A program made the position numbers and the translations under genes. 64,000 nt of DNA from Todiramphus chloris collaris (Eukaryota > Chordata > Aves > Coraciiformes > Alcedinidae), in assembly GCA_025345505.1 (NCBI GenBank), contig JANVCC010009742.1:3211637-3275636 (forward strand). Direction: 5' to 3'. The notes beneath the pieces were generated by a model. It did not search any database. It saw only the letters and a list, made by a program, of their open reading frames with translations, and had not been told where the DNA came from. This document shows positions 20,265-35,968 of the stretch, piece by piece. Positions within the stretch are counted from its first letter, which is position 1. Each line of letters begins with the position of its first letter.

Positions 20265-20295
20265 TCAAAATCCCTGTTGCTGTCAAAATGCGGCC

Positions 20296-20324: not shown

Positions 20325-20334
20325 CAAGCCATGC

Positions 20335-21450: not shown

Positions 21451-21515
21451 TGTGTTCCCCTAGGATTGTTATTGTCACATTCCGTATGTCCGGCCCTGTG
21501 GCCGTATGCGTGGTT

Positions 21516-22622
21516 CTAGGTCTGGTGCGGCAGTAAAAACCCCTGTTCTATGGGCCAGGACACCCAGACATCGGCGCGGTGCGCAAAGGGCGGCGTTGCA
21601 ACCGTCGGCATCGACACCGCGATCGATGCGCCGGTGCGGGTTTTCAGGTGATAGCGGGTGACGGCGCCGAGATAGGTCGCGTCCTCGACCCGGCAGGCGA
21701 TGGCATTGTGCCCGGTGTTGTTCGGCGCTGCCGCGATGGTCATATGTTCGGGGCGCACGGCGGCGACGGCTCTTGGCCCGATCTGCGGCTTTGTCCGGGC
21801 AAGCACGATGGTCCTGTCCTCGAACTGCCCGGCCGCCCTGTCGCCATCGAGGCGCAGCGCATCGAGCGGCAGAAGATTGATCTCGCCGAGAAACTCCGCG
21901 ACGAAGCGATTGGCCGGCCGTTCATAGACGTCCTGCGGGCGTCCGACCTGCAAAAGCTCGCCATGGTTGAAAATTGCCACGCGGGAGGACAGAGCGAGGG
22001 CCTCCGACTGGTCATGCGTGACGAAAACAAAGGTCGTGCCGGTTTCCTGATGCAGGCGTTTGACTTCCTCCTGCATCATCTCACGCAAATTCTTGTCGAG
22101 AGCGGAGAAGGGCTCATCCAGCAGCAGCACCGAGGGTTCGAAAGCCAGCGCCCGCGCAAGAGCAACACGCTGCTGCTGGCCGCCGGAGAGTTTTGTCGGC
22201 AGCTTTTTCTCGTGCCCGATGAGGCCGACCCGCTCGACCATCTCGCCGACGCAGCGCTTGATGTCGGCGGCGGAGCGACCGCGCACCTTGAGCGGGAAGG
22301 CAATATTCTGTTCAACCGTCAGGTGCGGGAACAGGGCATAACCCTGGAACACCATGCCGTAGGAGCGGTCTTCGGCCGGCACATCGGTGATATCCCGGCC
22401 ATCCATCATCAGGCGGCCTTCACTCGGCGCGGTAAAGCCGGCGAGAATCATCAGGAATGTGGTTTTTCCCGATCCGGAAGGACCGAGAAGGGTGAGAAAC
22501 TCGCCGCGTCCGATGTCGAGCGACAAATCCTTCAGCGCACGGAATGCACCGAACGTCTTGCCAATGGAAACAGCCTTGATCTCGGCGGCTTTCGCATCGC
22601 CCAGTTGCATGCGTTGAGGCAT
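21516..22622 (-). CDS. Polyamine-type ABC transporter ATP-binding protein (PotA-like)
   Basis: A 368-residue ATPase: Walker A GPSGSGKTT, signature LSGGQQQRVALARAL, Walker B LLLDEPFSALD, switch His in FVTHDQSEALALS, then a C-terminal TOBE domain (GPRAVAAVRPEHM). First gene of the leftward operon ATPase, binding protein, two permeases, dehydrogenase. The ATG at 22622 has GAGG seven bases upstream and is preferred over an open frame extending to 22682. A palindrome at 22704-22720 lies about 80 bases upstream. Confidence 0.91.
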   Translation of the reverse strand: MPQRMQLGDAKAAEIKAVSIGKTFGAFRALKDLSLDIGRGEFLTLLGPSGSGKTTFLMILAGFTAPSEGRLMMDGRDITDVPAEDRSYGMVFQGYALFPHLTVEQNIAFPLKVRGRSAADIKRCVGEMVERVGLIGHEKKLPTKLSGGQQQRVALARALAFEPSVLLLDEPFSALDKNLREMMQEEVKRLHQETGTTFVFVTHDQSEALALSSRVAIFNHGELLQVGRPQDVYERPANRFVAEFLGEINLLPLDALRLDGDRAAGQFEDRTIVLARTKPQIGPRAVAAVRPEHMTIAAAPNNTGHNAIACRVEDATYLGAVTRYHLKTRTGASIAVSMPTVATPPFAHRADVWVSWPIEQGFLLPHQT

Positions 22623-22703
22623 TGATTGACCTCTTTCCCCTTCTTTTCGGGAAAGCCTAGGCACAATCTCCGGTGACGACAATTGAAATATATTGCCGCG
22701 ATA

Positions 22704-22720
22704 CGTGAATGAAATTCACG
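22704..22720. promoter_or_regulatory. Candidate LysR operator upstream of the PotA-like operon
   Basis: Perfect palindrome CGTGAAT-GAA-ATTCACG. It lies between the LysR gene stop and the ATPase start. A near-match with the same GTGAAT-N3-ATT core is at 23661-23679, in front of the LysR gene and the amidohydrolase gene. Confidence 0.55.
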
Positions 22721-22748
22721 CCAGCATGAGCAGATGTTATTCCTGACC

Positions 22749-23639
22749 TCATGCGTTGCGCGTTTGCGACAGGCGCGATTTCAGCCATTCCGTGAACGCC
22801 AGCTGGGCCGGATGCTCGATCTTGGCGAAATCCGTGACGAGAAAATACGACTTCGGCGACTTGATGCTGAGGTCGAACGGACGGATGAGTTGACCTGCCT
22901 TCATGGCTTTGCGGCAGGTGAGCTCATCGCCCATCGCAACGCCCTGCGCCGTGATGGCGGCGGAATAGACAAGGTTCATGTCGGAAAAGATGATGCCGCG
23001 CTCCGAATCCGGGTTCTCGACATTGGCCAGCGCCATCCAGCGGGTCCAGTCCTCGAAATCGCCCAGATGCAGCAGCGGCGCGCGCAACAGGTCTCTTGGC
23101 TCGGCAATGCCGCCGATCTTGTTGAGCAGCACCGGGCTGCACAGCGGCGTGAATTCCACCTCGCACAGCAGTTCCACAGCGCGGTTCGGCCAGTTGCCGT
23201 CACCGAAGGCTATAAAAATATCGACGGTGGAATCAGTCACGTCGTCGAGCTTGCGCGGCGTGACGATGCGCAGCGCGACATCGGGATATTTCTCCTGAAA
23301 CTCGGCGATATGGGTGCACAGCCACAGCGACGCGAAGCCCGCCGTCGAACTCACGCACAATGATCCGCCGACACCCGCCGGGCTCTGCCGGCCGCCGGCA
23401 TCGTCGATGACGATCAGCGCCTTGCGCACGTCATTGGCATATTTGCGGCCGCGCGGCGTGAGCGCAACGCCCTTGCCGTCACGTTGCAGGAGTTCGAAGC
23501 CGAGATCGCGCTCCAAGAGGCGCAGCTGATGGCTGACCGCGCTGCGGGTGAGATGCAGCTCTTCCGCCGCACGCCAGACGCTGCCGTGCCTGGCAAAACT
23601 CTCGAGCGACCGCAGGGCCTGTGTGGAAGGAATGCGCAT
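22749..23639 (-). CDS. LysR-family transcriptional regulator (GcvA-like)
   Basis: A 296-residue regulator. The winged helix-turn-helix is at about residues 8-65 (RSLESFARHGSVWRAAEELHLTRSAVSHQLRLLE), followed by a LysR substrate-binding domain (SLCVSSTAGFASLWL onward). The start at 23639 (MRIPSTQALRSL) fits the GcvA-like N-terminus; the open frame continues upstream without a sensible start. It is next to the leftward transporter operon and divergent from the amidohydrolase gene at 23750, and shared palindromes suggest that it controls both. Confidence 0.9.
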   Translation of the reverse strand: MRIPSTQALRSLESFARHGSVWRAAEELHLTRSAVSHQLRLLERDLGFELLQRDGKGVALTPRGRKYANDVRKALIVIDDAGGRQSPAGVGGSLCVSSTAGFASLWLCTHIAEFQEKYPDVALRIVTPRKLDDVTDSTVDIFIAFGDGNWPNRAVELLCEVEFTPLCSPVLLNKIGGIAEPRDLLRAPLLHLGDFEDWTRWMALANVENPDSERGIIFSDMNLVYSAAITAQGVAMGDELTCRKAMKAGQLIRPFDLSIKSPKSYFLVTDFAKIEHPAQLAFTEWLKSRLSQTRNA

Positions 23640-23660
23640 GAATGGAATTCCGGTTGATGA

Positions 23661-23679
23661 GGTGAATAGAATTTGCACG
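23661..23679. promoter_or_regulatory. Candidate LysR operator between the LysR and amidohydrolase genes
   Basis: GGTGAATAGAATTTGCACG, an imperfect palindrome sharing GTGAAT-N3-ATT with 22704-22720. It sits about 20 bases before the LysR start and 70 bases before the divergent gene at 23750, the normal place for autoregulation plus control of the neighbour. Confidence 0.4.
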
Positions 23680-23749
23680 TTTTGAAAAAACATATCACTT
23701 TTTGTCCCGCCTTCCAGATGATTATCTCGCCGCAACGGGGAGATGGATC

Positions 23750-25336
23750 GTGATCACGGCAGCAGGAAGCACAGCGCTGGATTTTGTCGACGCGCATCAG
23801 GCCGACCTGTCGGCATGGACGCGCACCATTTTCGATTTCGGCGAAACAGCCTGGCGCGAATATCAGTCGGCGGAATGGTATGTGGCGCTGCTGCGCCGCG
23901 AGGGTTTTGACGTCGAGGTCGGCTCGGGCGGCATGCCCACGGCATTCTGCGCGCACTGGACCAACAGGGCTGGAATGACAGGCAAATCCCCTGTCATCGG
24001 CATGTATGCGGAATATGACGCCGTCCCCGGCAACTGCCAGGATGCGGCAACGGTCAAACGGCCAAGACCCGGCTTGAACGAGCATGCGGGCGGCCACACG
24101 GACCCGCATTCGGGGCTCGGCATTTCCAGTCTCGGCGGGCTGCTGGCAACAAAGGCCGCCATGCAGAAGCACGGCATTGCGGGCACGCTGCGCTTCACCG
24201 GCGAACCCGCCGAAAAAGTGCGGGGCTCGAAACCCATCCATGCCGCCAAGGGCTACTATGACGGGCTGGACGGAATGATCTCGTTCCATCCGTTCTACAT
24301 GCTGCCGCTGTGCAATACGGTGCGCTGGGAGACCCACTGCGGCGCTGCCTATTCGATGATCTACCGCTTTGTCTGCGACCAGCCGGAGGGTTGGGGGCTC
24401 AGCGACGGTGCGCCGATCCCGCAATCCCACTCGGCGGTGCGCGCCCCCGGCGCCAACGATGCGCTGATGATGATGTACATGGCCTCGAAGGCGCTGCGCG
24501 ATTCCATGCTGCCGCATCAGGGCGGCTGGTCGATCAGCGAGGCGATCCTGACGGCGGGGCAGGCGACGGCCGACAATCTTCCCGCCGGGCTTGCGGAAAT
24601 CCAGTACATGATGCGCGTGCCTGACATCGCCATGGCCGAGCGCGTCACCGCCGTGCTCGACCGCAACGCCGAGCACGCTGCCGCCATGACCGGCTGCCGG
24701 GTGGAGCGGCACTGGGTGTGCAAGTCGCGGCCCGGTCTTGCCAACCATGCCATGGCTGAAGTGACCTGGGATGCCCTGCAGACCGCCGGTGCGCCGCGCT
24801 GGAACGAGGCGGCAAAGGCGGTTGCGCGGGAGATTCAGGTGAATGCCGGGATCGATGCGATGCAGGACCCGTTTCTCGATGAATGCGAGGCATTGATCGC
24901 GCCTGTGGAAGCTGAGGCGATCCTGCGCCGCGACCTGCCACCATCGCAGATCAATTCTACCTCCGACGATTATACCGACATGACATGGCACGCGCCGACC
25001 GTACGGTTCTACGTGGCGCGGCCCGCTTTGAAGGCACCGAAAGGGTTTGCCTATCCGGGCTGGGTGATGAATGCGCTCGGCGGTATCCCTGCAACGATCG
25101 ATCCGATGGTGCTGACAGCCGCCAGGACGGTGGCGCTGACGGCCCTGCGCCTGCTTGAGGATGGCGAGGCGAGGGACAAGGCAAAGGACGAATTCATCCG
25201 GCGCACCGGCGGCGGAATTGGCGGGTCAAACTGGATCGCACCGCTATGCGACTACGAGCCGCCGATTCATTTCCGCTGGCCGGAATATGTGACCACTGCA
25301 CGCGGGCGGGACTGGTGGATACCCACGCGCCCCTGA
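23750..25336 (+). CDS. M20-family metallo-amidohydrolase (AbgB-like)
   Basis: A 528-residue peptidase/amidohydrolase of the M20 (AbgB, PaaJ-like amidohydrolase) type. Putative metal-site segments are MYAEYDAVPG, NEHAGGHTDPHSGLG, FTGEPAEKVRG and a late SDDYTDMTWHAP. AbgB cleaves p-aminobenzoyl-glutamate; other M20 members cleave N-acyl, peptide or N-carbamoyl bonds of amino acids. The GTG at 23750 has GGGGAGA eight bases upstream; a TTG at 23702 lacks a ribosome site. First gene of a plus-strand operon with a DDAH-fold enzyme (15 bases later) and an aldehyde dehydrogenase, so the substrate is probably a conjugated arginine or a ureido/guanidino acid. Confidence 0.85.
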   Translation: MITAAGSTALDFVDAHQADLSAWTRTIFDFGETAWREYQSAEWYVALLRREGFDVEVGSGGMPTAFCAHWTNRAGMTGKSPVIGMYAEYDAVPGNCQDAATVKRPRPGLNEHAGGHTDPHSGLGISSLGGLLATKAAMQKHGIAGTLRFTGEPAEKVRGSKPIHAAKGYYDGLDGMISFHPFYMLPLCNTVRWETHCGAAYSMIYRFVCDQPEGWGLSDGAPIPQSHSAVRAPGANDALMMMYMASKALRDSMLPHQGGWSISEAILTAGQATADNLPAGLAEIQYMMRVPDIAMAERVTAVLDRNAEHAAAMTGCRVERHWVCKSRPGLANHAMAEVTWDALQTAGAPRWNEAAKAVAREIQVNAGIDAMQDPFLDECEALIAPVEAEAILRRDLPPSQINSTSDDYTDMTWHAPTVRFYVARPALKAPKGFAYPGWVMNALGGIPATIDPMVLTAARTVALTALRLLEDGEARDKAKDEFIRRTGGGIGGSNWIAPLCDYEPPIHFRWPEYVTTARGRDWWIPTRP

Positions 25337-25351
25337 CAAGGAGACGGACCA

Positions 25352-26287
25352 ATGACACGCCATGAACAGGGCTTTGACAATGATGCTTTCACGCTGAAGC
25401 GCCGCAATCCGAACGGCGGTACACAACCGCTGAAAGGCTGGGGCTTTCGCAACGAAACCGACCCGCTGACCGATGTGCTTTTGGGCTCCCCTGCCTTTCT
25501 GCGCCACATGGCGACAAGCTCGCTGTCACGCAAGCATCTGCGCGAGGCGCCGTGCAACATTCAGACCGCACAGGCCCAGCACAAGGAACTGGTCGCCGCC
25601 TATGAGCATTTCGGTGTGAAGATCCACTGGCATGAGCCCGAACCGGAACTGCCGATGCAGGTCTATTCCCGCGATTCCAGCGTCATGACGCCCTATGGCG
25701 CCATCATCACCGCCATGGCCAACTGGTGGCGGCGCGGCGAAAACTATGCCGCGATCCGCACCTATGAAAAGCTTGGCATTCCGATCTATGACATGGTGAC
25801 CGCCGGCACCTTCGAGGGCGGTGATTTCAACGTGATCGAGGAGGGCTGCGTCCTCATCGGCTGCGGCGGTGCCCGCACGCAGGAAGAGGGCGCGCGGCAG
25901 GTGGAGGAATGGTTCCGGCGGGAAGGCTGGGAGACACGTCTTGCCTTCATCGACGAGTATTACGTGCATATCGACCTGATGGTGGTGCCGATTGCGCCGA
26001 AACTGACCGCCGTGTGCCTCGCCTGCACCGAGCCGGGCATTGTCGACTGGCTGAAAGCCAAGGGCCACGAGATCATCGATGTGCCGTTTCAGGATACGAT
26101 GAATCTCGGCTGCAATTTCATGGCGCTGGGCAGGGACCGGATCATCGCGCCGTCGTCGAGCAAGACGCTGATCGACAAGCTGCGCGCGCGCGGATTCGAG
26201 GTGGCTGCGGTGGATATGAGCGAGATTTCCAAAACCGGCGGCGGCATTCACTGCATGGCACAGGCGCTGGTGCGCTCGGCGGGGTGA
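25352..26287 (+). CDS. DDAH/arginine-deiminase-fold guanidino hydrolase 1
   Basis: A 311-residue member of the amidinotransferase/dimethylarginine dimethylaminohydrolase superfamily. The fold uses a Cys-His-acid triad to attack a guanidino carbon. Visible: substrate-site YSRDSSVMTPYGA, EGGDFNVI near 155, His in YYVHIDLM near 206, and the C-terminal nucleophile Cys301 in GGGIHCMAQAL. It could release ammonia from arginine-like substrates (iminohydrolase), or dimethylamine from dimethylarginine. It is only about 20% like the second enzyme at 31444 by eye, so the two probably differ in substrate. AAGGAGA precedes the ATG at 25352. Confidence 0.85.
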   Translation: MTRHEQGFDNDAFTLKRRNPNGGTQPLKGWGFRNETDPLTDVLLGSPAFLRHMATSSLSRKHLREAPCNIQTAQAQHKELVAAYEHFGVKIHWHEPEPELPMQVYSRDSSVMTPYGAIITAMANWWRRGENYAAIRTYEKLGIPIYDMVTAGTFEGGDFNVIEEGCVLIGCGGARTQEEGARQVEEWFRREGWETRLAFIDEYYVHIDLMVVPIAPKLTAVCLACTEPGIVDWLKAKGHEIIDVPFQDTMNLGCNFMALGRDRIIAPSSSKTLIDKLRARGFEVAAVDMSEISKTGGGIHCMAQALVRSAG

Positions 26288-26297
26288 GAGTGGTTTT

Positions 26298-26455
26298 ACC
26301 CCCCTCTGGGCTGCCGCCCATCTCCCCCACAAGGGGGGAGATCAGCTTTCACAATGGTTTCAGCCAACCTTCAACGTTGAAAATGATACGGAATCATTGA
26401 TGTCAATGTGATCTCCCCCCTTGTGGGGGAGATGTCCGGCAGGACAGAGGGGGGT
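26298..26455. repeat. RIME-like repeat B, copy 1
   Basis: A 158-base element: outer arms ACCCCCCTCTG... and ...CAGAGGGGGGT, each with an inner hairpin ATCTCCCCC-AC-AAGGGGGGAGAT. The centre (TTCACAATGGTTTC... to ...TCAATG) is AT-richer and differs between copies. Here it lies inside the presumed operon, between the DDAH-fold gene and the aldehyde dehydrogenase gene. Confidence 0.9.
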
Positions 26456-26565
26456 GATAGCGATAGTCGGCCACCACATAAACTTTCCGTCGTTTTTCCT
26501 TCTAGCAACCAAGCGAAAAGCCCCATACCATTTCCGTGACAAACGGCATTCATAAGGAGGCGACG

Positions 26566-27990
26566 ATGCTCATCAAGCGGGATTTCTACATCAATGGCGC
26601 GTGGGTGCCGCCTCTCAAGGCCAATGATCTCGAGGTGATCAATCCGGCGACGGAGAAGCCGATTGCCATCATCTCCATGGGCACGGCAGCCGATATCGAC
26701 CGCGCCGTGGCTGCGGCGAAAACGGCCTTCCAGACCTACAGCCGGACGTCGGTGGAGGAGCGGCTGGCGCTCCTGGAAAAGCTGCTTGAAATCTACAAGC
26801 GCCGATATGACGAGATGGCGCAAACCATCACGCTGGAGCTCGGCGCGCCGATCACCATGAGCACCCAGCAGCAGGCGGATGTCGGTGTCGGCCATCTCCA
26901 GGGCTTTATCGACGCGCTGAAAGCCCTGCACATGCGCGAGGAACTGCCGAACGGCGATCTGCTGGTGCGCGAGCCCATCGGCGTGTGCGGGCTGATCACG
27001 CCGTGGAACTGGCCGATCAACCAGATCGCGCTGAAGGTCGTCCCGGTGCTGGCCACCGGCAGCACCTGCGTGCTGAAGCCAAGCGAGTTCACGCCGCTCA
27101 ATGCGTTGCTTTACGCGGAGATGGTGCATGAGGCAGGCTTTCCAGCGGGCGTGTTCAACCTCGTCAACGGCGATGGTGCGACGGTGGGCGCGGCTTTGTC
27201 CAAGCATAAGGACGTCGACATGATGTCGTTCACCGGTTCCACCCGCGCCGGTATCGCCGTCAGCAAGGATGCGGCCGAAACGGTCAAGCGCGTCACGCTG
27301 GAACTGGGCGGCAAGTCGCCGAACATCGTGTTCGAGGATGCCGATCTGGAAGATCGCGTCGCGGGCAGTGTGCTCGAATGTTTCAACAACAGCGGCCAGT
27401 CCTGCGATGCGCCGACGCGCATGCTGGTGCAGCGCTCGGTCTATGACAAGGCGGTGAAAATCGCCGAAGCCACCGGCAGGCAGGCACAGGTCGGTGATCC
27501 GCAGGAGGAGGGCGATCATATCGGCCCGCTCGTCAGCCATATCCAGTATGGCCGGGTGCAGAACCTGATCGAAGCGGGTATTTCCGAGGGCGCACGGGTG
27601 CTGGTCGGCGGTGCGGGCAAGCCAGCGGGCTATGAAACCGGTTATTTCGTCCGCCCCACCATTTTTGCCGATGTGCGCAACGATATGCGCATTGCGCGGG
27701 AAGAAGTGTTCGGGCCCGTGCTCGCGCTCATTCCGTTCGATACGGAGGAAGAAGCCATCGCCATCGCCAATGACACGCCCTACGGCCTTGCCGCCTATGT
27801 GCAGACGGGCGATGCCAAGCGTGCGGAGCGCGTGGCATCAAGGCTGAAAGCCGGCATGGTGCATATCAATGGCGGCCCGCATCGCTATGGCAGCCCGTTC
27901 GGCGGCTACAAGCAGTCCGGCAATGGCCGCGAGGGCGGAAAATTCGGGCTGGAAGACTTTCTCGAGGTCAAGACCATCCATCGGCCGTAA
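26566..27990 (+). CDS. Aldehyde dehydrogenase, candidate 4-guanidinobutyraldehyde dehydrogenase
   Basis: A 474-residue NAD(P)-dependent aldehyde dehydrogenase. PWNWPINQIALKVVP, the cofactor loop FTGSTRAGIAVSKDAAET, catalytic Glu in LELGGKSPNIV and catalytic Cys in NNSGQSCDAPTR are all present. In the arginine transaminase pathway the decarboxylase product 4-guanidinobutanal is oxidised by such an enzyme (KauB in Pseudomonas), and the decarboxylase and transaminase genes are convergent right next to it. The ATG at 26566 has AAGGAGG five bases upstream. The family is certain; the substrate is inferred from context. Confidence 0.9.
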   Translation: MLIKRDFYINGAWVPPLKANDLEVINPATEKPIAIISMGTAADIDRAVAAAKTAFQTYSRTSVEERLALLEKLLEIYKRRYDEMAQTITLELGAPITMSTQQQADVGVGHLQGFIDALKALHMREELPNGDLLVREPIGVCGLITPWNWPINQIALKVVPVLATGSTCVLKPSEFTPLNALLYAEMVHEAGFPAGVFNLVNGDGATVGAALSKHKDVDMMSFTGSTRAGIAVSKDAAETVKRVTLELGGKSPNIVFEDADLEDRVAGSVLECFNNSGQSCDAPTRMLVQRSVYDKAVKIAEATGRQAQVGDPQEEGDHIGPLVSHIQYGRVQNLIEAGISEGARVLVGGAGKPAGYETGYFVRPTIFADVRNDMRIAREEVFGPVLALIPFDTEEEAIAIANDTPYGLAAYVQTGDAKRAERVASRLKAGMVHINGGPHRYGSPFGGYKQSGNGREGGKFGLEDFLEVKTIHRP

Positions 27991-28020
27991 CGGGCAGAAA
28001 TGGTTGATGGCGAAACGCCA

Positions 28021-29607
28021 TCAACCAATCAATGTTTCATCGATTTCAATCAGATAGGACTGTCCGCTCGCGTTGGCTTTCAACAGGGCGGCGGGCAGTT
28101 CCTCCAATGTTTTCAGCTTCTGCGAAGCCACGCCATAGGCCTCGGCGATTTTCAGGTAATCGGGTGCCGAGGGACGCACGCCCACCGGATTGATGTGGAC
28201 ATCGCGCATGGCGCGCTCGATTTCCTGATAGCCCTGATTGTTCCAGACGACGAAAATAACAGGCACTTTCTCGTCGACCGCAGCGCCGAGTTCCCCCAGC
28301 ACGAACTGAAACCCGCCATCGCCCACGATGCAGATCGTCGAGGTCTCGGGCTGGCCGAGGGCCGCACCGATGGCGGCGGGCGGGCCGAAGCCGAGCGCGC
28401 CGAAGCCCGTCGCCGCATTGAACCAGCCGCCGACGCGGTCATGATCGTAATAGAGATTGCCGGAATAGATGGCCTGCGTGGAATCCCCGACGATGAGTGA
28501 GCCCGGCAGCGTGTCGCGCAGGATATTCAGAAAGCGCACATGGCTTTGCGTGCGCGGACCGATCTCAGCCCATGCGGCATCGCGTGTTGCCAGGGCGCGG
28601 TCTTCGCCGGACTTCGTGTTGCGCCGCGCGGGCAAGGTAGCAGCGAGCGCTTCGACGGTTTCCCTGGCCGAAGCCTCGATGGGCATGAAGGCGGGACGCC
28701 GGTCGAGTTGTCCGGCATCGATGTCGATGCGCACAAGGCGTTTCAACTCGGGAAAACCGCCATCGCCATACATGTCATAATCGGTCGGTCCCATTTCCGT
28801 GCCGATGGCGAGGACAAGATCGCTTTCCGCAAGAAGAGTGCGCACGGCGGTGAGGCTGGCGCTGGCCGGGATCAGCAGCGGGTGATTGTGCAGGATGCCG
28901 CGTGCATTGGTGGTTGCCACCACGGGCGCATCCAGTTTTTCCGCCAAACCCTTGAGTTCCGCCGCAGCGCCCTTGGCGCCGCCGCCGATGAGAATGACCG
29001 GACGTTCCGCCGCAAGGCACTGGCGGGTGAGTTCCGCCATGGTTTCGGCCGATGCTTGCGGGATCGGCGCATCGGACAACTGGCGGCTCGCACCATCCAG
29101 CGGCTGCGCCATCACGTCGAGCGGTATCTCGATATGCACGGGGCCGGGACGCCGCGAGGCGAACAGCGCAAAGGCGCGGGCGAGCACGATGGGCAATTCG
29201 TCCGCTTTTTCAATGCGATGCGAGAACATCGCAACCGTCTGCAACATGGCGCGCTGATTGGGCAGTTCATGCAGGAAACCCATGCCCTTGCCGAGCGAGT
29301 CCCGCTGGTTAACACCCGATATCACCAGCATGGGAATGGAATCGGCGCGCGCCTGACCCATCGCGGTGATCGTGTTGGTGATGCCGGGACCGGTGATGAC
29401 AAACGCAACGCCGGGCTTGCCGGTTGCCCGGGCATAGCCGTCGGCCATGAAGCCCGCGCCCTGTTCGTGGCGCGGCGTGATGTGGCGTATCGTCGATGCG
29501 GCAAGGCCGCGATAGAGTTCGATGGTGTGGACGCCGGGAATGCCGAAGACGGTATCGACATCGTAGGATTCAAGCAGATGGACGAGGGCTTCACCGACCG
29601 TGGTCAT
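28021..29607 (-). CDS. aruI: ThDP-dependent 2-oxoacid decarboxylase, AruI type (2-ketoarginine decarboxylase)
   Basis: A 528-residue enzyme of the acetolactate-synthase/benzoylformate-decarboxylase fold. The catalytic Glu lies in TPRHEQGAGFMADGYARATG near residue 50, and the ThDP/Mg motif is GDGGFQFVLGELGAAV...VVWNNQGY near 437-465. In Pseudomonas, AruI decarboxylates 5-guanidino-2-oxopentanoate made by AruH. Here the start overlaps the stop of the AruH-like gene by four bases, which makes the assignment strong although sequence alone would allow other 2-oxoacids. It is the last gene of the leftward operon and faces the aldehyde dehydrogenase. Confidence 0.88.
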   Translation of the reverse strand: MTTVGEALVHLLESYDVDTVFGIPGVHTIELYRGLAASTIRHITPRHEQGAGFMADGYARATGKPGVAFVITGPGITNTITAMGQARADSIPMLVISGVNQRDSLGKGMGFLHELPNQRAMLQTVAMFSHRIEKADELPIVLARAFALFASRRPGPVHIEIPLDVMAQPLDGASRQLSDAPIPQASAETMAELTRQCLAAERPVILIGGGAKGAAAELKGLAEKLDAPVVATTNARGILHNHPLLIPASASLTAVRTLLAESDLVLAIGTEMGPTDYDMYGDGGFPELKRLVRIDIDAGQLDRRPAFMPIEASARETVEALAATLPARRNTKSGEDRALATRDAAWAEIGPRTQSHVRFLNILRDTLPGSLIVGDSTQAIYSGNLYYDHDRVGGWFNAATGFGALGFGPPAAIGAALGQPETSTICIVGDGGFQFVLGELGAAVDEKVPVIFVVWNNQGYQEIERAMRDVHINPVGVRPSAPDYLKIAEAYGVASQKLKTLEELPAALLKANASGQSYLIEIDETLIG

Positions 29608-30794
29608 GCGGATTTCCGTTGCTGGAGGCGGGTTGCGAGGCGGACGATCCCGGCGCAGGCGGCATCGATCTTGTCATCGGCGACGCTGAGGCTGAGACGC
29701 AGGTAACCGGCGAGATTGTCGCCGAAGGATTCGCCGGGCATGACGGCCACGTGTTCCTCTTCGAGAAGACGCATGGCGAAATCATTGCCGCTCAATCCGG
29801 TGGCGCGGATGTCGGCGAGAATGAACATGCCCGCCTGCGGCACGTCGGCGCCGATGCCGGCAATGCCGTCGAGCCGCTTGGAGATCAGCTGGGCGCGGCG
29901 GAAATAGCTCTCGCGCATCGTCGCAGCAGCGGCCGATGGCTGGCCGAGGGCATAGGCGGTCATGTCGGCGATGAAGGGCTGGACGCCGAACAGCATGGAT
30001 TCGGACAGCGGCAGCAGTTTCTGCGTGAACTCCGCCGGGCCGACGCACCAGCCGCTGCGGAAACCCGGTGCGGCATGGGATTTGGAAATGGAGGCAACGG
30101 CAATCGTCCGGTCGGCGAGTTCGGGCCGGTCGAGCGGCGAGGCAAAACTGCCGTCAAAGATCAGCAGTTCGTAGACCTCGTCGGAGACGATCCACAGATT
30201 GTGTTTGCGGCAGACTTCACCGATCTCGGCCACTTCCTTGGCGCTCAGCACGGCCCCGGTCGGGTTGTGCGGGGTGTTGAGGAGGAGGACACGGGATTTC
30301 GGCGTGATCGCCTTTTCCAGATCGGCGGCCTGCATGCGGAAACCGTTTTCCGGCCGCAGCGGAACGGACACGCGCGTTGCGCCGGTGGCGCGGACGACGC
30401 CGTCATAAGTGGCATAGAGCGGGTCGCCCGTGATGATCTCGTCGCCTTCCTCGGCAAGGCCGAGCATGACGAGCGACAGCGCGGTCTGCGTACCGGGAAA
30501 GCACAGGATGTGTTCCGGACCGATGGCCCGGCCGGTGCGTGCGGTGTACTTTGCCGAAAGCGCCGCGAGAACGCCGGGTTCGCCCCGCCCGTTGGAATAG
30601 CCGGTGCGGCCGGAGCGCATGGCGTGTTCGGCCACATCCAGCATGTCGGTGGGGGTGGGAATATCCGGTTCGCCGATGGTGAGCTCAATGATCTCATGAC
30701 CGGCGCGCTTCATTTCGCGCGCACGGATATGCACGGCCCATTTATCCGATCCCAGTCCGGCCAGACGGCCGGTCACAGACGCATAGCGCATCAT
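29604..30794 (-). CDS. aruH: PLP-dependent aminotransferase, AruH type (arginine:pyruvate transaminase)
   Basis: A 396-residue class I/II aminotransferase. The PLP lysine is in ISKSHAAPGFRSGW near residue 230, with NTPHNPTGA and SDEVYELLIFDG (Asp and Tyr that hold PLP) before it and the distal Arg in YLRLSLSV. The N-terminal MRYASVTGRLAGLGSDKWAVH and overall layout match AruH. It would convert L-arginine and pyruvate to 2-ketoarginine and alanine. Overlaps of four bases with the TetR gene and with aruI show translational coupling. Confidence 0.88.
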   Translation of the reverse strand: MMRYASVTGRLAGLGSDKWAVHIRAREMKRAGHEIIELTIGEPDIPTPTDMLDVAEHAMRSGRTGYSNGRGEPGVLAALSAKYTARTGRAIGPEHILCFPGTQTALSLVMLGLAEEGDEIITGDPLYATYDGVVRATGATRVSVPLRPENGFRMQAADLEKAITPKSRVLLLNTPHNPTGAVLSAKEVAEIGEVCRKHNLWIVSDEVYELLIFDGSFASPLDRPELADRTIAVASISKSHAAPGFRSGWCVGPAEFTQKLLPLSESMLFGVQPFIADMTAYALGQPSAAAATMRESYFRRAQLISKRLDGIAGIGADVPQAGMFILADIRATGLSGNDFAMRLLEEEHVAVMPGESFGDNLAGYLRLSLSVADDKIDAACAGIVRLATRLQQRKSA

Positions 30795-31447
30795 TGGGCG
30801 CCTCCTTCAGCTTGTAATGAAATTCCCAGTACGGCTTCAATAGCGGCAACCCCGGTTTCCGCCAATTCCCCATCGTCGAAAATATCGCCGGCAAGACAGC
30901 CTTCCAGCCATAATCCGTCGATGATGGCGTTGATGGCGATGGCGTGGCGGCGGGTATGGTTCGGTTCCGCCGGTTTGCCGGCGGCGCGCAGCGCCTCGCG
31001 GATCAGGATTTCCAGCTCGTCGCGAAAGCCGAGATAGCCGTCGCGATGGGCGGAGGCCATGGCCGGGTCGGCATGCACGAGCGCAATGAAACCCGCCCAC
31101 AGCGAGAGGTTGTGCGGGTCCATGATCGGTTCGCCGAGATTGGCGGTAACGAACGCCTGCAGGCGCGAACGCGGATCGTCAGCGGCATTCTGCAAGGCAT
31201 CGCTGGCCTGCACGGTCATGCGGTTCATCACGGCGCGGTAGGCGGCGCCGATCAGGTCGTCCTTGGTCGGGAAGTAATAGCGGATCAGCCCGGCGGTTAC
31301 ATCGGCCCGCTGGGCGATTTCGCGCACGGTCGCACCGGCAAGACCGCGCTCGGCCACACATTCAAGCGTCGCGGCGATCAGATCCTCGCGGCGCTTGTCC
31401 TCGCCCTCACGGCGAAAGGTTTTGCGTGTAGCCGATTGTGCGTTCAT
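30791..31447 (-). CDS. TetR-family regulator (BetI-like C-terminal domain)
   Basis: A 218-residue repressor-type protein. The helix-turn-helix covers about residues 17-62 (GLAGATVREIAQRADVTAGLIRYYF). The ligand domain resembles the BetI/TetR_C_6 group (WAGFIALVHADPAM, AINAIIDGLWLEGCLAG). BetI senses choline, but this gene sits between a DDAH-fold gene and aruH with four-base overlaps on both sides, so it more likely senses a guanidino compound and controls its own operon and the divergent transporter. The start at 31447 overlaps the upstream stop. Confidence 0.88.
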   Translation of the reverse strand: MNAQSATRKTFRREGEDKRREDLIAATLECVAERGLAGATVREIAQRADVTAGLIRYYFPTKDDLIGAAYRAVMNRMTVQASDALQNAADDPRSRLQAFVTANLGEPIMDPHNLSLWAGFIALVHADPAMASAHRDGYLGFRDELEILIREALRAAGKPAEPNHTRRHAIAINAIIDGLWLEGCLAGDIFDDGELAETGVAAIEAVLGISLQAEGGAQ

Positions 31448-32316
31448 TGCCGGAAAACCGGACGGGTGAGGCAGGTCGGGCCGCCCTCGCAGGCAATGCA
31501 CAGCGCATCCGCCTCGAAGGTCGTGACGGTGCAGCCGGCGGCTTCCATGGCGGCCTTGGTCTTTTCGAAGCCCGCCACGGCGATGACTTCATAGGGCGCC
31601 GTCGGCAGCACGTTGAGGTTGAGGCCGTTGCTGGCGGCAAATTCGTCCTCCGGCGCGGCGATCAGGCGGATGCCACGCTCCTTCAGCAGCTGGTAGAAGG
31701 CGGCGGGCAGCAGCGGCAGGTGCACCAGCGCCAGGTCTTCGGCCAGCGGCGAAATGATCGACATCAGGTGCAGGCAGGCCTCTTCGCCCTGCCACAGCGG
31801 CAGGTCGAACCCGAGGACGGTGACGCCAAGCGGCTCGAGGATGGCGGCCATCTGCTCGATACCGGCCTGATTGGTGCGCACGCCGCGGCCGATGGCCAGC
31901 GTCTTGCTGTCGACCCAGACGCAGTCGCCGCCTTCGACGGTGCCCGGCGCGACGATGCGGCCGAGCACCGGCACATCCATCTGGCTGTAGGTTTCGTGGT
32001 GCAGGTCCGTCTCGTCGAGGCGCAGGGATTTGCCCATGCGCAGCAGGATCGCACCCTTGTCGGTGACGAGGGAGGGATCGTGCGTGAACACGGAATCCGA
32101 CAATCCGTCATTGCCGTCCCTGATCCAGGTGATGTCGGCGCCCGACTGGGCGACGAGACCGGCAAAGACGCGGTGCTGTTCGGAGGCGCGGCGCGGATCG
32201 AACTGCGGACCGTAATGCCAGACGTCGCGTTCGGCGCCCGCCATGACGTGGTCAGGCATGCGCATGATGACGCGTTTCAGGGGAAGGGCCATGGACTGGG
32301 AACCGAATGCGCTCAT
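31444..32316 (-). CDS. DDAH/arginine-deiminase-fold guanidino hydrolase 2
   Basis: A 290-residue member of the dimethylarginine dimethylaminohydrolase family. TVEGGDCVW (128-134), His183 in CLHLMSIISPL, and nucleophile Cys282 in GGPTCLTRP form the expected triad; RDGNDGLSDSVFTHDP near 66-80 is the usual substrate-side segment. It resembles bacterial DDAH and arginine N-omega hydrolases more than arginine deiminase (about 410 residues). First gene of the leftward operon DDAH-tetR-aruH-aruI. Start at 32316; the frame is open further but without a fitting start. Confidence 0.86.
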   Translation of the reverse strand: MSAFGSQSMALPLKRVIMRMPDHVMAGAERDVWHYGPQFDPRRASEQHRVFAGLVAQSGADITWIRDGNDGLSDSVFTHDPSLVTDKGAILLRMGKSLRLDETDLHHETYSQMDVPVLGRIVAPGTVEGGDCVWVDSKTLAIGRGVRTNQAGIEQMAAILEPLGVTVLGFDLPLWQGEEACLHLMSIISPLAEDLALVHLPLLPAAFYQLLKERGIRLIAAPEDEFAASNGLNLNVLPTAPYEVIAVAGFEKTKAAMEAAGCTVTTFEADALCIACEGGPTCLTRPVFRQ

Positions 32317-32338
32317 GCGACTGCTCTCTCGTAAAAAT

Positions 32339-32369
32339 TGCATATGCGAGTATTTATACGCTTGCATAA
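32339..32369. promoter_or_regulatory. Candidate operator between divergent DDAH and ABC-transporter genes
   Basis: An AT-rich imperfect palindrome (TATGCGAGTAT...ATACGCTTGCATA) about 25 bases upstream of the DDAH-fold gene and 120 bases upstream of the transporter ATPase gene. It is a plausible binding site of the TetR protein coded in the operon. Confidence 0.4.
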
Positions 32370-32486
32370 TTAGAGCGCAAGTGGTGTGATGCCCTAAATT
32401 AGGCAGTTTCGCCTCATGCTGACAAAACAGGCAGAAATGAACGGTGTCATGACAGCAGGTGCAAGACAACCCATGGGAACCCGGCA

Positions 32487-33311
32487 ATGACGGAGGCGTT
32501 GCGCGCATCCGTTGCCACGGACCCGCTCCAACCCGGTGCGGCCGAACGGGCCGAAGCCATCCACGTCTGGAACCTGCACAAGAAGTTCGGCGCCCTTGAG
32601 GTTCTCAAGGGCGTTTCGCTGACAGCCAGGGACGGCGACGTGGTCGCCATGATCGGCGGCAGCGGCTCGGGCAAATCCACCTTCCTGCGCTGCATCAATT
32701 TCCTCGAAAACCCGACGAGCGGCGTCATCCGCATCAATGGCGAGGACGTGCAGATGGTCAGCGACGGCGAGGGCGGCCAGTACCCCGCCAACCGGCGCCA
32801 GATCGAGCGTATCCGCAGCCGGCTTGGCATGGTGTTCCAGAATTTCAATCTCTGGCAGCACATGACCCTGATCCAGAATGTCATCGAAGTGCCGGTTCAC
32901 GTGCTGGGGATGAAGCGTGACGAGGCCATGGCCATCGGCGAGCAATTGCTGGAGCGGGTCGGGCTGTCGGCCAAGCGCGACGTCTATCCCGCCTTTCTCT
33001 CCGGCGGCCAGCAGCAGCGCGGCGCCATTGCCCGCGCGCTCGCCATCCAGCCGCGCGTCATGCTGTTCGACGAACCGACCTCCGCGCTCGATCCGGAACT
33101 GGTCGGAGAAGTCCTGAAAGTGATCGGTGACCTCGCCAAGGAGGGGCGGACGATGCTCCTGGTCACGCATGAGATGAAATTCGCCCGCGAAGTGGCGAGC
33201 CATGTCATGTATCTGCACAACGGTATCGTCGAAGAAGAGGGGCCGCCGGAAGAATTGTTCGGATCACCAAAATCCGAACGTTTGAAGCAGTTTATCCGTA
33301 CTGTTTCATAA
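32487..33311 (+). CDS. Polar amino-acid ABC transporter ATP-binding protein (HisP/ArtP-like)
   Basis: A 274-residue ATPase with Walker A GGSGSGKST, signature LSGGQQQRGAIARAL, Walker B VMLFDEPTSALD and HEMKFAREVA, the layout of HisP, OccP and ArtP. First of four transporter genes (ATPase, binding protein, two permeases) divergent from the guanidino-compound operon, so arginine, ornithine or a modified arginine is the likely cargo. The start at 32487 leaves a family-atypical 30-residue N-terminal extension before the conserved core. Confidence 0.92.
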   Translation: MTEALRASVATDPLQPGAAERAEAIHVWNLHKKFGALEVLKGVSLTARDGDVVAMIGGSGSGKSTFLRCINFLENPTSGVIRINGEDVQMVSDGEGGQYPANRRQIERIRSRLGMVFQNFNLWQHMTLIQNVIEVPVHVLGMKRDEAMAIGEQLLERVGLSAKRDVYPAFLSGGQQQRGAIARALAIQPRVMLFDEPTSALDPELVGEVLKVIGDLAKEGRTMLLVTHEMKFAREVASHVMYLHNGIVEEEGPPEELFGSPKSERLKQFIRTVS

Positions 33312-33371
33312 GTCGCATGAAAAAATACAGGGAATAATCCTGGGGAACAATAAAGAGAAATGGAGATAGGA

Positions 33372-34151
33372 ATGAAAGCTTTCTTGAAATCAGCGGTTGC
33401 CGCCGCTGTGCTGGTTGCCGGAATGGGAGTTGCCAGCGCTGAACAGATCAAGGTCGGCATTGCCGCCGAACCCTATCCGCCCTTCGCCTCGCCGGATGCC
33501 TCGGGCAAGTGGGAAGGCTGGGAAGTCGATGTCGCCCTTGCCATCTGTGCGCAGGCCAAGCTTGATTGCGTCATCACGCCCGTGTCGTGGGACGGCATCA
33601 TTCCGGCGCTGACCACCAAGAAGATCGACATGATCGCCGCTTCCATGTCGATCACGCCGGAACGCGAGAAGACCATCGATTTCTCCGACAAATATTACAA
33701 CACGCCAACGGTCATTCTCGGCTCGAAGGACGTCAAGATGGACGCTTCGCCGGAAGGCCTGAAGGGCAAGGTGCTCGGCGTGCAGGTGTCGACCATCCAC
33801 CAGGCCTATGCGAAGAAGCATTTCGCCGCGACCGCCGCCGAGATCAAGGAATACCAGACACAGGACGAAGCCAATCAGGATCTGGCTGCCGGACGCATCG
33901 ACGCCACACAGGCCGATTCGCTGGCGCTCGAGACCTTTGCCCAGACCGATGCGGGCAAGGCCTGCTGCGAAATCAAGGGCAAGGTTGCGCCCGATCTGGA
34001 AGTGCTTGGACCGGGTGTCGGTGTCGGTCTGCGCAAGGGCGAGACGGAGCTGAAGACCAAGATCAATGCGGCCATCAAGGACATTCGCACCAACGGCAAG
34101 TATGACGAGATTTCGAAGAAATATTTCAACTTCGATATTTACGGGGGGTAA
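33372..34151 (+). CDS. Polar amino-acid ABC transporter substrate-binding protein
   Basis: A 259-residue periplasmic protein of the SBP_bac_3 (HisJ/ArgT/LAO) family. A signal peptide covers about residues 1-23 (VLVAGMGVASA). The mature start QIKVGIAAEPYPPFASPD and the later MIAASMSITPEREKTIDFSDKYY are classic for cationic amino-acid binders. An internal Cys pair (ACC near 200) is seen. GGAG precedes the ATG at 33372 by six bases. Confidence 0.92.
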   Translation: MKAFLKSAVAAAVLVAGMGVASAEQIKVGIAAEPYPPFASPDASGKWEGWEVDVALAICAQAKLDCVITPVSWDGIIPALTTKKIDMIAASMSITPEREKTIDFSDKYYNTPTVILGSKDVKMDASPEGLKGKVLGVQVSTIHQAYAKKHFAATAAEIKEYQTQDEANQDLAAGRIDATQADSLALETFAQTDAGKACCEIKGKVAPDLEVLGPGVGVGLRKGETELKTKINAAIKDIRTNGKYDEISKKYFNFDIYGG

Positions 34152-34181
34152 GCCGCTCACTTGATGGTGGTTCGCGGTACT

Positions 34182-34323
34182 GGTGCGTGGTTCGACAAGC
34201 TCACCATGAGGGAGAGGGGTGCTGTAAGGCTAACCGGAAAGATTGCAATCCGAACGGTCTTGCAGAACTTGGCTCCCTGAAGTCTTCACTCTTCCTCATG
34301 GTGAGCTTGTCGAACCACGCACC
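34182..34323. repeat. Palindromic intergenic repeat A, copy 3 (long form)
   Basis: Inverted repeat with arms of about 34 bases (34182-34215 and 34290-34323, one mismatch near the inner end) and a 74-base centre similar to copy 2. It lies inside the transporter operon between the binding-protein gene and the first permease gene, so its hairpin could limit permease expression. Confidence 0.92.
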
Positions 34324-34376
34324 AGCACCATGGGCCTTGTGAGAACGGTAACGCATTGTTTTGAATCGAGGATCGC

Positions 34377-35129
34377 TTGGCCGACGCATCGATTGCTCCC
34401 GCCGCAATAGCCGGCATGTTCGACCTTCTGTCGCCCAATCCGCCGGGTTGGGGCGGCAACCTCCTGCGCGGTCTGGCGAATTCGCTGCAGATCGCCGTCG
34501 GCGCCTTTGGCATGGGATTGCTCATCGGCACGGTCGGTGCCTATGGCAAGCTTTATGGCGGCCCGCTGGTGCGCGACATCGCCGCCATCTACACCACCAT
34601 CGTCCGTGCCGTGCCGGAACTGGTGCTGATCCTTTTGCTCTACTATGCCGGTACCGACATGATCAACCGGGTGCTGGAAAGCCTCGGCTATCAGCGCGTC
34701 GACATCAGCGGACTGGTGGCGGGGATCGTGGTTCTCGGCTTCGTGCAGGGCGCCTATGCAACCGAGGTGCTGCGCGGTGCCATCAAGGCCATTCCGCAGG
34801 GGGAAATCGAGGCGGCGCGGGCCTATGGCATGTCGCCGACGCTGATGATGCGCCGCATCACCCTGCCGGCCATGCTGCCGCATGCGCTGCCGGGCCTTGC
34901 CAATCTCTGGCTGATCTCGACCAAGGATACGGCGCTGCTGGCAGTCGTCGGTTTCAGCGAGTTGACGCTCGTCACCCGGCAGGCGGCGGGCACGACAAAG
35001 GCGTATTTCCTGTTCTTCATCGCCGCCGGCATCCTCTACCTCGCCATCACGCTGTTTTCCAATGTCATCCTTGCCAAGGTCGAGCAATGGGCGCGGCGCG
35101 GCATGCCTTCCGTCAAGGAGGCGCGGTAA
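34377..35129 (+). CDS. Polar amino-acid ABC transporter permease (HisQ-like)
   Basis: A 250-residue inner-membrane protein with about five hydrophobic segments and the family motif EVLRGAIKAIPQGEIEAARAYGMSP. The start is TTG at 34377 with GAGG just upstream; the next in-frame ATG (34416) has no ribosome site. The stop overlaps the next permease start (TAATG). Confidence 0.9.
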   Translation: MADASIAPAAIAGMFDLLSPNPPGWGGNLLRGLANSLQIAVGAFGMGLLIGTVGAYGKLYGGPLVRDIAAIYTTIVRAVPELVLILLLYYAGTDMINRVLESLGYQRVDISGLVAGIVVLGFVQGAYATEVLRGAIKAIPQGEIEAARAYGMSPTLMMRRITLPAMLPHALPGLANLWLISTKDTALLAVVGFSELTLVTRQAAGTTKAYFLFFIAAGILYLAITLFSNVILAKVEQWARRGMPSVKEAR

Positions 35130-35968
35130 TGACCGAGACGCCGCTGGAAACCCCGATCGAGACATTCCCGATCCACAAGGACAGCGACACGAGCGGTCAG
35201 GCGCGCGCACTGCCGCCGCACCGCATCGTTCTCATCCTCATCGGCCTCGCGCTTGTGGCCTCGGCTATCGTCTTCATGCGCTGGGACTGGCTGCCCAATT
35301 ACGGCGATCTGATCCTGCAGGGCCTGTGGCGGACGATCTGGATACTGGTCGTCACCGTGATCATCGGCTTTCTGCTGGCGGTTCCGCTTGGGCTGGCACA
35401 GGCAGCCGGGCCCGCCGTGGTGGCGGTGCCGGCACGCGTGTTCTGCACGGTGATCCGCGGCACGCCGCTGCTCCTGCAGCTCTGGCTGCTCTATTACGGC
35501 CTGGGCTCGCTGTTTCCGCAATATCCGTGGATACGCAGTTCTGAACTCTGGCCTTATCTGCGGCAGGCATGGCCCTATGCCGTTCTCGCCCTGTCCCTGT
35601 CCTATGCGGGCTATGAGGGCGAAGTCATGCGCGGCGCCTTCGCCGGTGTGCCCAAGGGACAGCTCGAATCCGCACGCGCCTTCGGCATGCGCCGCTTTAC
35701 GATTTTCCGCCGCATCTGGCTGCCGCAGGCCATTCACCGAGCCTTGCCGACACTGGCGGGCGAGGCGGTCCTGCAGCTGAAATCCACGCCGCTGGTGGCG
35801 ACGATTACGGTCGTCGATCTCTACTCCGTGGCCTCGCGCGTCAGGCAGGATACCTACATCACCTATGAGCCGCTTCTGCTGCTGGCGGCCGGGTATCTGG
35901 TCATCACCGGCATCATCGTTTTCCTGTTCCGGCGGCTGGAAAAGCTCATACCATCGAGGCTCGGATGA
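35129..35968 (+). CDS. Polar amino-acid ABC transporter permease (HisM-like)
   Basis: A 279-residue inner-membrane protein. A hydrophilic 30-residue N-terminus is followed by about five membrane segments and the coupling loop EVMRGAFAGVPKGQLESARAFGM. AAGGAGG lies seven bases before the ATG, which overlaps the HisQ-like stop by one base. Last gene of the transporter operon. Confidence 0.9.
   Translation: MTETPLETPIETFPIHKDSDTSGQARALPPHRIVLILIGLALVASAIVFMRWDWLPNYGDLILQGLWRTIWILVVTVIIGFLLAVPLGLAQAAGPAVVAVPARVFCTVIRGTPLLLQLWLLYYGLGSLFPQYPWIRSSELWPYLRQAWPYAVLALSLSYAGYEGEVMRGAFAGVPKGQLESARAFGMRRFTIFRRIWLPQAIHRALPTLAGEAVLQLKSTPLVATITVVDLYSVASRVRQDTYITYEPLLLLAAGYLVITGIIVFLFRRLEKLIPSRLG

Follow-up and report, generated by a model that had tools for sequence, protein, structure and literature searches.

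Two Neighboring Gene Units Proposed to Act on Arginine-Type Compounds in a Phyllobacterium-Related Locus: A Possible Urea-Free Route

Introduction

The genes of the arginine transaminase/dehydrogenase pathway of Pseudomonas encode AruH, AruI, an aldehyde dehydrogenase, and GbuA. As described in PMC2242806, 2-ketoarginine gives rise to 4-guanidinobutyrate, which is converted to 4-aminobutyrate with release of urea. For arginine deiminase (ADI), a member of the superfamily that also contains dimethylarginine dimethylaminohydrolase (DDAH), PMC3474736 assigns contacts to the substrate's amino group to Asn198, to its carboxylate to Arg223 and Arg276, and to the intermediates to Asp204 and Asp315, while Cys440, His313, and Glu257 form a triad. 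Here, we compare with these systems a locus on a stretch of 64,000 nucleotides, in the following called the window, which was deposited with the genome of the bird Todiramphus chloris collaris (assembly GCA_025345505.1, contig JANVCC010009742.1). The window is bacterial and lies on a 3.42-Mb contig within an eukaryote-sized assembly (1.17 Gb, 889 contigs), as bacterial DNA of a symbiont or contaminant; its closest relatives are found in Phyllobacterium.

The locus encodes two proteins of the DDAH fold, DDAH1 and DDAH2, which we assign to two neighboring units, A and B. We propose that these units, counterparts of which are carried by soil and plant bacteria related to Phyllobacterium, are catabolic units for arginine-type compounds that may be able to form one urea-free route, a reading to which we give a probability of roughly 0.45. 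Its basis is the genes present, their conserved neighborhood and co-occurrence, the active-site residues, and the family matches; all substrates and reactions, as well as the coupling of the two units, are inferred from these. With the arginine transaminase pathway of Pseudomonas the locus shares an AruI-family decarboxylase, an aminotransferase, and an aldehyde dehydrogenase, whereas its cluster has no guanidinobutyrase and carries an ADI-like deiminase and an M20-type hydrolase instead. The components are thus of known kinds; what would be new is their combination together with two altered active sites. A literature search of partial coverage, by which absence from print is unproven, returned neither an account of a 4-guanidinobutyrate deiminase nor one of this gene set.

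Results and Discussion

Two Units Rather Than a Single Cluster

The first-pass annotation of the window had described positions 23750-35968 as one arginine transaminase pathway cluster with two DDAH-fold enzymes, an M20 hydrolase, an aldehyde dehydrogenase, AruH, and AruI. According to the list of open reading frames (ORFs) and to Pfam and NCBIfam profile searches, the named genes are indeed present with intact ORFs; they fall, however, into two units, each with one of the DDAH-fold enzymes. Unit A extends to the left of the interval considered earlier: Its minus strand carries, at 18618-23735, a transporter and a LysR-type regulator. The transporter, the parts of which were named by eye, consists of the ABC permeases PotC (18618-19430) and PotB (19434-20264), both matching PF00528, the solute-binding protein PotD (20335-21450; PF13416, no NCBIfam match at E 1e-20), and the ATPase PotA (21516-22682, start uncertain; PF00005, PF08402). 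The regulator (22749-23735, start uncertain; PF00126, PF03466) is divergent from the M20-type hydrolase (M20), a protein of 528 amino acids encoded at 23750-25336 on the plus strand. On the same strand follow DDAH1 (25352-26287; PF02274, PF19420), which begins 15 bases after M20, and the aldehyde dehydrogenase (about 26566-27990; PF00171). The latter is convergent with the AruI gene, and we assign it to unit A by position because in a Paramesorhizobium locus (L016), the flanks of which lack unit B, an aldehyde dehydrogenase gene also comes after DDAH1.

Unit B is read from the minus strand in the order DDAH2 (31444-32316; PF02274), a BetI/TetR-type regulator (30791-31447; PF00440 and PF13977, BetI cut-offs not reached), a class I/II aminotransferase (29604-30794; PF00155), and an AruI-type, thiamine diphosphate-dependent 5-guanidino-2-oxopentanoate decarboxylase (28021-29607), with an overlap of 4 nucleotides between successive genes at their predicted starts. 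The AruI-type protein scores 761.9 bits against NF005712 (cut-off 500), which is a subfamily model, so that its substrate is not proven by this match. The aminotransferase reaches no NCBIfam cut-off and is named AruH for its position next to AruI. Divergent from these genes, an amino-acid ABC transporter occupies 32487-35968 on the plus strand, comprising an ATPase (32487-33311), a solute-binding protein (33360-34151; PF00497) that is nearest to the Lys/Arg/Orn type (TIGR01096, 234 bits, below the cut-off of 256.35), and two permeases matching PF00528 (34377-35129 and 35129-35968, the start of the second being approximate).

Unit A Is Conserved and Co-Occurs with AruI

Conservation was assessed in 80 loci, the best of 278 relatives, which were collected with DDAH1 as the sole query and may therefore be biased; 66 of these loci have full flanks and 14 shortened ones. 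M20 is present in 78 of the 80, the exceptions being L045, which is truncated by a contig end, and L030. The order PotABCD-LysR-M20-DDAH1 is retained in 65 of the 66 loci with full flanks, and this gene set is thus kept together more than would be expected by chance.

A less biased sample, albeit one that probably contains many close kin, is provided by 297 order-level genomes. At E-value thresholds of 1e-80 for M20, 1e-60 for DDAH1, 1e-120 for AruI, and 1e-40 for DDAH2, M20 was found in 23, DDAH1 in 39 (17 at an identity of at least 69%), AruI in 33, and DDAH2 in 30 of them (13 at 58% or more). The 17 close DDAH1 proteins occur together with M20 in 14 genomes (1.3 expected), with AruI likewise in 14 (1.9 expected), and with DDAH2 in 7 (1.7 expected); the joint occurrences of AruI with M20 (14, expected 2.6), AruI with DDAH2 (14, expected 3.3), and M20 with DDAH2 (10, expected 2.3) exceed expectation as well. 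Moreover, a protein above the NF005712 cut-off is encoded in 19 of 19 genomes with unit A compared to none of 14 control genomes.

Physical linkage points in the same direction. An AruI-type gene lies in the flanks of 15 of the 80 loci: five with unit B, nine of the Rhizobium/Pararhizobium type, and one from Rhodobacteraceae. In the latter ten it is found beside PotC, independently of the arrangement in the window, and the two of these ten that were scored both exceed the NF005712 cut-off (L018, 738 bits; L072, 727 bits). The AruI-type gene of genome G200 is also located beside PotC (733 bits), while in G145 it immediately follows DDAH1 (745 bits), which constitutes a third arrangement of unit A and AruI. 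Among the 14 sampled genomes that contain both genes, AruI and DDAH1 are linked in four, for which the probability by chance is 1.7e-7 if a target of 20 kb within 5.5 Mb is assumed; omission of G001, a near relative of the window, leaves 3 of 13 and a probability of 1.3e-5, kinship being ignored in both values.

Unit B was also followed in the sampled genomes. Among the 13 genomes with a DDAH2 of at least 58% identity, ten, G001 included, have AruI and an ABC transporter in the cluster; BetI was detected in nine of these ten clusters and the aminotransferase in only three, which sets unit B apart from the Pseudomonas pathway. A Shinella plasmid carries the full set and Rhizobium AB2/73 all of it except AruI. 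In G096, unit B is followed by a hydrolase that we read by eye as hippurate-type M20D and then by LysR-PotABCD; neither M20 nor DDAH1 was found in the stretch that was read.

DDAH1 Resembles a Deiminase with a Lost Amino Site

For the assignment of active-site residues, both DDAH-fold proteins were aligned to DDAH from P. aeruginosa, with residue roles taken from those given for arginine deiminase in PMC3474736. The two proteins share with the ADI/DDAH superfamily (PMC11659421; PMC3474736) the family match, the Cys-His-Glu triad, which is kept in both, and the carboxylate-binding arginines, whereas neither reaches a curated NCBIfam cut-off for ADI or DDAH. In DDAH1, Met102 at the site of the alpha-amino group, D108, R127, E155, R175, H206, D208 two positions after the histidine, and C301 are identical in 81 of 81 sequences, and the same pattern is found in G200, G251, G023, G145, and G150. 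DDAH1 therefore matches arginine deiminase in two arginines, two aspartates, and the triad, and differs from it in the replacement of the alpha-amino asparagine by methionine. Because methionine occupies the amino site while both guanidinium aspartates and both carboxylate arginines are retained, the predicted substrate of DDAH1 combines an unsubstituted guanidino group with a carboxylate and is devoid of a free alpha-amino group.

Two established activities were considered for DDAH1 and set aside. The invariance of both carboxylate-binding arginines, by which the substrate should possess a carboxylate, disfavors an agmatine deiminase; a canonical arginine deiminase is at odds with the missing alpha-amino residue, and the score against the arcA model is 36 bits (cut-off 489.1). 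In the ADI-fold partners of M20 relatives from Kozakia, G312, G225, and G145, lysine is found at the amino site and the rest of the pattern is kept. Four distant sequences were set aside in the residue table: L093 (Haladaptatus) is without the catalytic cysteine and the second guanidinium aspartate, L094 misses one carboxylate arginine, and L091 and L087 deviate from the DDAH1 pattern by an acidic residue at the amino site (Asp and Glu, respectively).

DDAH2 Resembles DDAH

DDAH2, numbered here according to the ORF of 354 amino acids, shows a different pattern: D138 at the alpha-amino site, D144, R163, E192, R211, H247, M249 two positions after the histidine, and C346 are conserved in 17 of 17 close sequences and in 29 of 29 sequences of a wider set, in one of which C346 is gapped. 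An aspartate at the amino site, a single guanidinium aspartate, and no aspartate two residues after the histidine are the features by which DDAH is recognized in our residue comparison, and DDAH2 shows all three. Its predicted substrate is, as in DDAH, an alpha-amino acid whose guanidino group carries a substituent.

This assignment bears on the earlier suggestion that the locus consumes methylated arginines, for which, judged by these residues, DDAH2 is suitable and DDAH1 is not. Unit B might accordingly operate as a methylarginine route in which DDAH2 would form citrulline and methylamines from N-methyl- or dimethylarginine, before the aminotransferase and AruI act; we hold this view tentatively, as a distinctly possible one, and it would be compatible with the function that we propose for unit A. 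The aspartate at the alpha-amino site and the methionine in place of the second guanidinium aspartate (17/17 and 29/29), where DDAH has Asp and Lys, argue for it, as does the amino-acid transporter retained in 10 of the 13 genomes in the sample whose DDAH2 has an identity of 58% or more. On the other hand, DDAH2 stays far below the dimethylargininase cut-offs (NF045658, 82.0 of 450 bits; NF045659, 26.9 of 300; NF045660, 82.1 of 340), and a histidine precedes the substrate aspartate in 17 of 17 close DDAH2 sequences compared to a glutamate in P. aeruginosa DDAH.

M20 and the Carbamoylase Family

Gene context makes M20 a likely candidate for the hydrolase of the ureido acid that DDAH1 would form. 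The argument comes from relatives in which its place may be taken: M20 is missing from three of the 17 sampled genomes with close DDAH1 (G023, G251, G200), and in two of these the DDAH1 cluster contains a protein of the hydantoinase/carbamoylase family TIGR01879 (cut-off 204 bits), which is adjacent to DDAH1 in G023 (L198, 431 bits). In G251 (L197, 406 bits), a GMC oxidoreductase gene separates the two, and the TIGR01879 protein is encoded on the opposite strand. Distant DDAH1-type genes are also accompanied by TIGR01879 proteins, namely directly adjacent in Halioglobus (L089, 404 bits) and Alisedimentitalea (L085, 441 bits) and within the cluster in P. zundukense (L090, 412 bits). The ADI-fold gene of the Kozakia type is paired with an M20 relative in L095, L185, L186, and L189. 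In S. meliloti Rm41, an M20 relative is also accompanied by proteins that score 725 bits against NF005712 and 276 bits against TIGR01879.

By sequence and by fold, the closest solved relatives of M20 are HmrA, YxeP, and PM20D2. The predicted structure (pLDDT 63.5, pTM 0.72), whose top fold match has a TM-score of 0.46, was used for this fold match only, as both motif segments are largely below a pLDDT of 50. Against the M20D model TIGR01891, the protein scores 95.2 bits, under the cut-off of 153.75.

Some further gene neighborhoods were seen around these families. Two M20 relatives of 67-68% identity (L193, 8736-10316; L194, 8988-10568) have as neighbors a YtcJ-like amidohydrolase and a metallochaperone-like gene of the CobW type, both read by eye, and a similar amidohydrolase-CobW pair is located near the DDAH1 relative of Halioglobus; possibly, the CobW-type neighbor supplies metal to the odd M20 site. 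Shinella and the pSymA plasmid of S. meliloti Rm41 (L097, L098) share a conserved cluster of an AruI-type decarboxylase, a carbamoylase-type gene, a PuuE-like protein, an M20 relative, an aminotransferase, a class II aldolase, and an amino-acid ABC transporter. On plasmids of S. meliloti and P. zundukense (L086, L090), an ADI-family gene is accompanied by an amidase, a class III aminotransferase, and a BKACE-type protein, in L090 additionally by a carbamoylase-type gene and an acetoacetate-CoA ligase; by gene content, these clusters may encode another pathway of a guanidino-acid-like compound. Among the amidase, nitrilase, and isochorismatase neighbors of more distant ADI-fold genes, the proteins of L086, L090 (the amidase), L093, and L030 reach no cut-off and were not counted.

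The Proposed Route

Taken together, the two units could cooperate as follows: Unit B would import an arginine-like amino acid, the guanidino group of which, probably N-substituted, would be hydrolyzed by DDAH2. The aminotransferase and AruI would then convert arginine or citrulline to the 2-keto acid and further to the aldehyde, from which the aldehyde dehydrogenase would produce 4-guanidinobutyrate or 4-ureidobutyrate. DDAH1 would deiminate a guanidino acid that derives from arginine but lacks a free alpha-amino group, thereby forming the ureido acid and ammonia; its substrate is most likely 4-guanidinobutyrate, possibly 2-ketoarginine or argininate. The former fits the supply by AruI and the aldehyde dehydrogenase, and the latter two fit the residue data equally well. 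Finally, M20 would hydrolyze the ureido acid and thus release the amine together with CO2 and ammonia; in some relatives, this step may fall to a hydantoinase/carbamoylase-family protein.

The idea that 4-guanidinobutyrate is broken down via 4-ureidobutyrate by a DDAH-fold enzyme and M20 had already been voiced in the first-pass annotation. It gains from the DDAH1 residues (81/81), from the TIGR01879 genes in two of the three genomes without M20, and from the linkage to AruI elsewhere; it loses by the position of M20 outside the carbamoylase family with an altered metal site, by the separation of DDAH1 and DDAH2, and by an absence of ureohydrolases that is confined to the interval 23750-35968. 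The most economical version is an amended one, in which DDAH1 and not DDAH2 would be the guanidino-acid deiminase, DDAH2 acting earlier and on the amino acid. A stricter formulation, which we consider somewhat unlikely, would be that in Rhizobiales and relatives DDAH1 is a deiminase specific for 4-guanidinobutyrate that forms 4-ureidobutyrate, and that M20, with a rebuilt metal site in which the usual Cys and Glu positions are lost and an invariant Lys is gained, converts the latter to 4-aminobutyrate, thereby replacing the TIGR01879 carbamoylase of sister lineages.

Evidence Against the Route and Alternative Explanations

A number of observations weigh against one urea-free route. Unit B is located beside unit A in only 5 of the 80 loci, 75 having no unit B in their flanks, and the P values of the co-occurrences (1.5e-15 to 5e-4) were calculated with kinship ignored. 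With respect to DDAH1, the AlphaFold model had to be discarded (pLDDT 51), and homologs of 47-58% identity (L200-L204) are found in contexts other than unit A, four of the five having been checked and possessing the pattern with tyrosine at the amino site; in distant ADI-fold relatives this site is occupied by Lys, Tyr, Phe, Val, Arg, Asp, or Glu. M20 does not match TIGR01879 at E 0.001. Compared to HmrA, its motif GHACGHN has become GHTDPHS and PAEE has become PAEK, with the alignment to YxeP shifting the first motif, and the lysine of the latter motif is invariant in 79 of 79 sequences and also in relatives of 50-58% identity. In M20D enzymes, the cysteine and the second glutamate are metal ligands; if these roles hold here, the metal site of M20 would be either rebuilt or lost. 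M20 thus departs from HmrA, PM20D2, and YxeP, its best sequence and fold matches, in the metal-ligand motif and in length (528 versus about 390-450 amino acids), and from the TIGR01879 amidases in the lack of a family match. Furthermore, the 19 kb read around DDAH1 in G200 contain neither M20 nor a TIGR01879 protein, and M20 relatives with no detected ADI-fold neighbor occur in L096-L098, L182-L184, L187, L188, and L190-L194, L182 and L184 being cut by contig ends. M20 and a TIGR01879 protein (430 bits) are present in one cluster of G145, and M20 relatives are clustered with TIGR01879-type genes in S. meliloti, Shinella (by annotation, 75% similarity), and Kozakia. Because of these joint occurrences, M20 may perform another step.

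Such a step could be the deacylation of an N-acyl-citrulline, formed by DDAH1 from N-acyl-arginine or another alpha-N-blocked arginine as AstB does with succinylarginine, and followed by transamination and AruI. DDAH1 has no residue for a free alpha-amino group, the lysine at the amino site of the Kozakia-type partners could meet an acidic acyl group, the best M20 matches include HmrA and PM20D2, a dipeptidase whose deposited name is Xaa-Arg dipeptidase or beta-alanyl lysine dipeptidase, and G145 has M20 in addition to the TIGR01879 protein. We regard this explanation as a fair rival but an unlikely one: TIGR01879 proteins occur in the clusters of G251 and G023, which are devoid of M20, and the genes near unit A that resemble 2-hydroxyacid oxidases are better suited to a hydroxy or keto acid. 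The window encodes a GlcD-like FAD-linked oxidase (17239-18621, minus strand; PF02913, PF01565; TIGR00387, 267 bits, cut-off 567.9); weaker relatives accompany unit A in certain loci of the Rhizobium type, of Labrys, and of Rhodobacteraceae and in G150, G200, and G023. FMN- and FAD-linked oxidase-like genes generally recur by unit A, two having been scored and neither reaching an NCBIfam cut-off; that they hint at an imported hydroxy acid such as argininate is a guess.

It is also conceivable, for the window itself, that the two units are unrelated neighbors, with unit A scavenging an imported guanidino compound alone and unit B having moved next to it in a single lineage of Phyllobacterium. 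The integrity of unit A in nearly all loci with full flanks and the rarity of an adjacent unit B would be expected in this case, and in the related genomes G005-G013 the AruI-type gene is located elsewhere, 31-54 kb from an arginase-type gene in eight of the nine and on another contig in G008. We judge the explanation rather unlikely in view of the nine Rhizobium-type loci, the Rhodobacteraceae locus, G145, G150, and G200, where unit A has an AruI-type gene linked to it but, in the stretch read, no unit B, of the LysR-PotABCD genes beside unit B in G096, and of the coincidence of DDAH1 and AruI in 14 of 17 genomes.

Lastly, the locus might belong to an ordinary arginine transaminase pathway that is completed by a guanidinobutyrase elsewhere in the genome, DDAH1 and M20 serving something else. 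The statement that the locus lacks a ureohydrolase is correct for the interval 23750-35968, in which a search of the assembly with the arginase-family profile PF00491 gave no match; it fails for the window, the contig's sole listed PF00491 match being an arginase (RocF; 60790-61812, minus strand; TIGR01229, 292 bits, cut-off 227.6) outside the cluster. All 19 unit-A genomes searched have arginase-family matches, 3 to 11 per genome. A protein of P. calauticae (L105), which we take to be GbuA-like and which NCBIfam classifies as agmatinase (TIGR01230, 209.8 bits, cut-off 174.3), is matched at 68% identity or more in four of the 19, P. calauticae included; the relative in G017 adjoins AruI. In G150, moreover, such a relative, an arginase-family gene read as guanidinobutyrase-like, is close to AruI and unit A, with AruI located by PotC and a LysR-like ORF between AruI and this gene, which counts against the urea-free route as well. 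Opposed to this, the other 15 unit-A genomes have L105-type matches of only 45-52% at best, and we do not expect the ordinary pathway to be the answer. In the assembly of the window, the remaining arginase-family matches are short and exon-like. Since argC was not found there either, in a search without a positive control in this assembly, the bacterial part may be incomplete; the missing guanidinobutyrase carries little weight for this reason and was not used as evidence.

Surroundings of the Locus

Beside the arginase, a class III aminotransferase is encoded (59553-60764, minus strand; PF00202) that appears RocD-like by eye. Between 49422 and 59369, we recognized by eye genes of carnitine/glycine-betaine catabolism, among them a BKACE-type cleavage enzyme, a Rieske oxygenase, and two dimethylglycine/sarcosine dehydrogenase-like proteins. 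A run of exactly 100 N at 48269-48368, probably a scaffold gap, breaks the ORFs at this position.

Conclusion

The window contains two units whose genes could jointly degrade arginine-type compounds, with DDAH1 as putative guanidino-acid deiminase and M20 as candidate for the subsequent hydrolysis. If this is true, functions would be given to two so far uncharacterized groups of proteins that are annotated as "dimethylarginine dimethylaminohydrolase family protein" and "amidohydrolase" in Mesorhizobium, Phyllobacterium, Rhizobium-type bacteria, and Rhodobacteraceae. The first would be a deiminase whose pocket for the alpha-amino group was lost, the second an M20 enzyme whose metal site is unusual, and these bacteria would possess a route for arginine nitrogen that gives ammonia and CO2 without urea.

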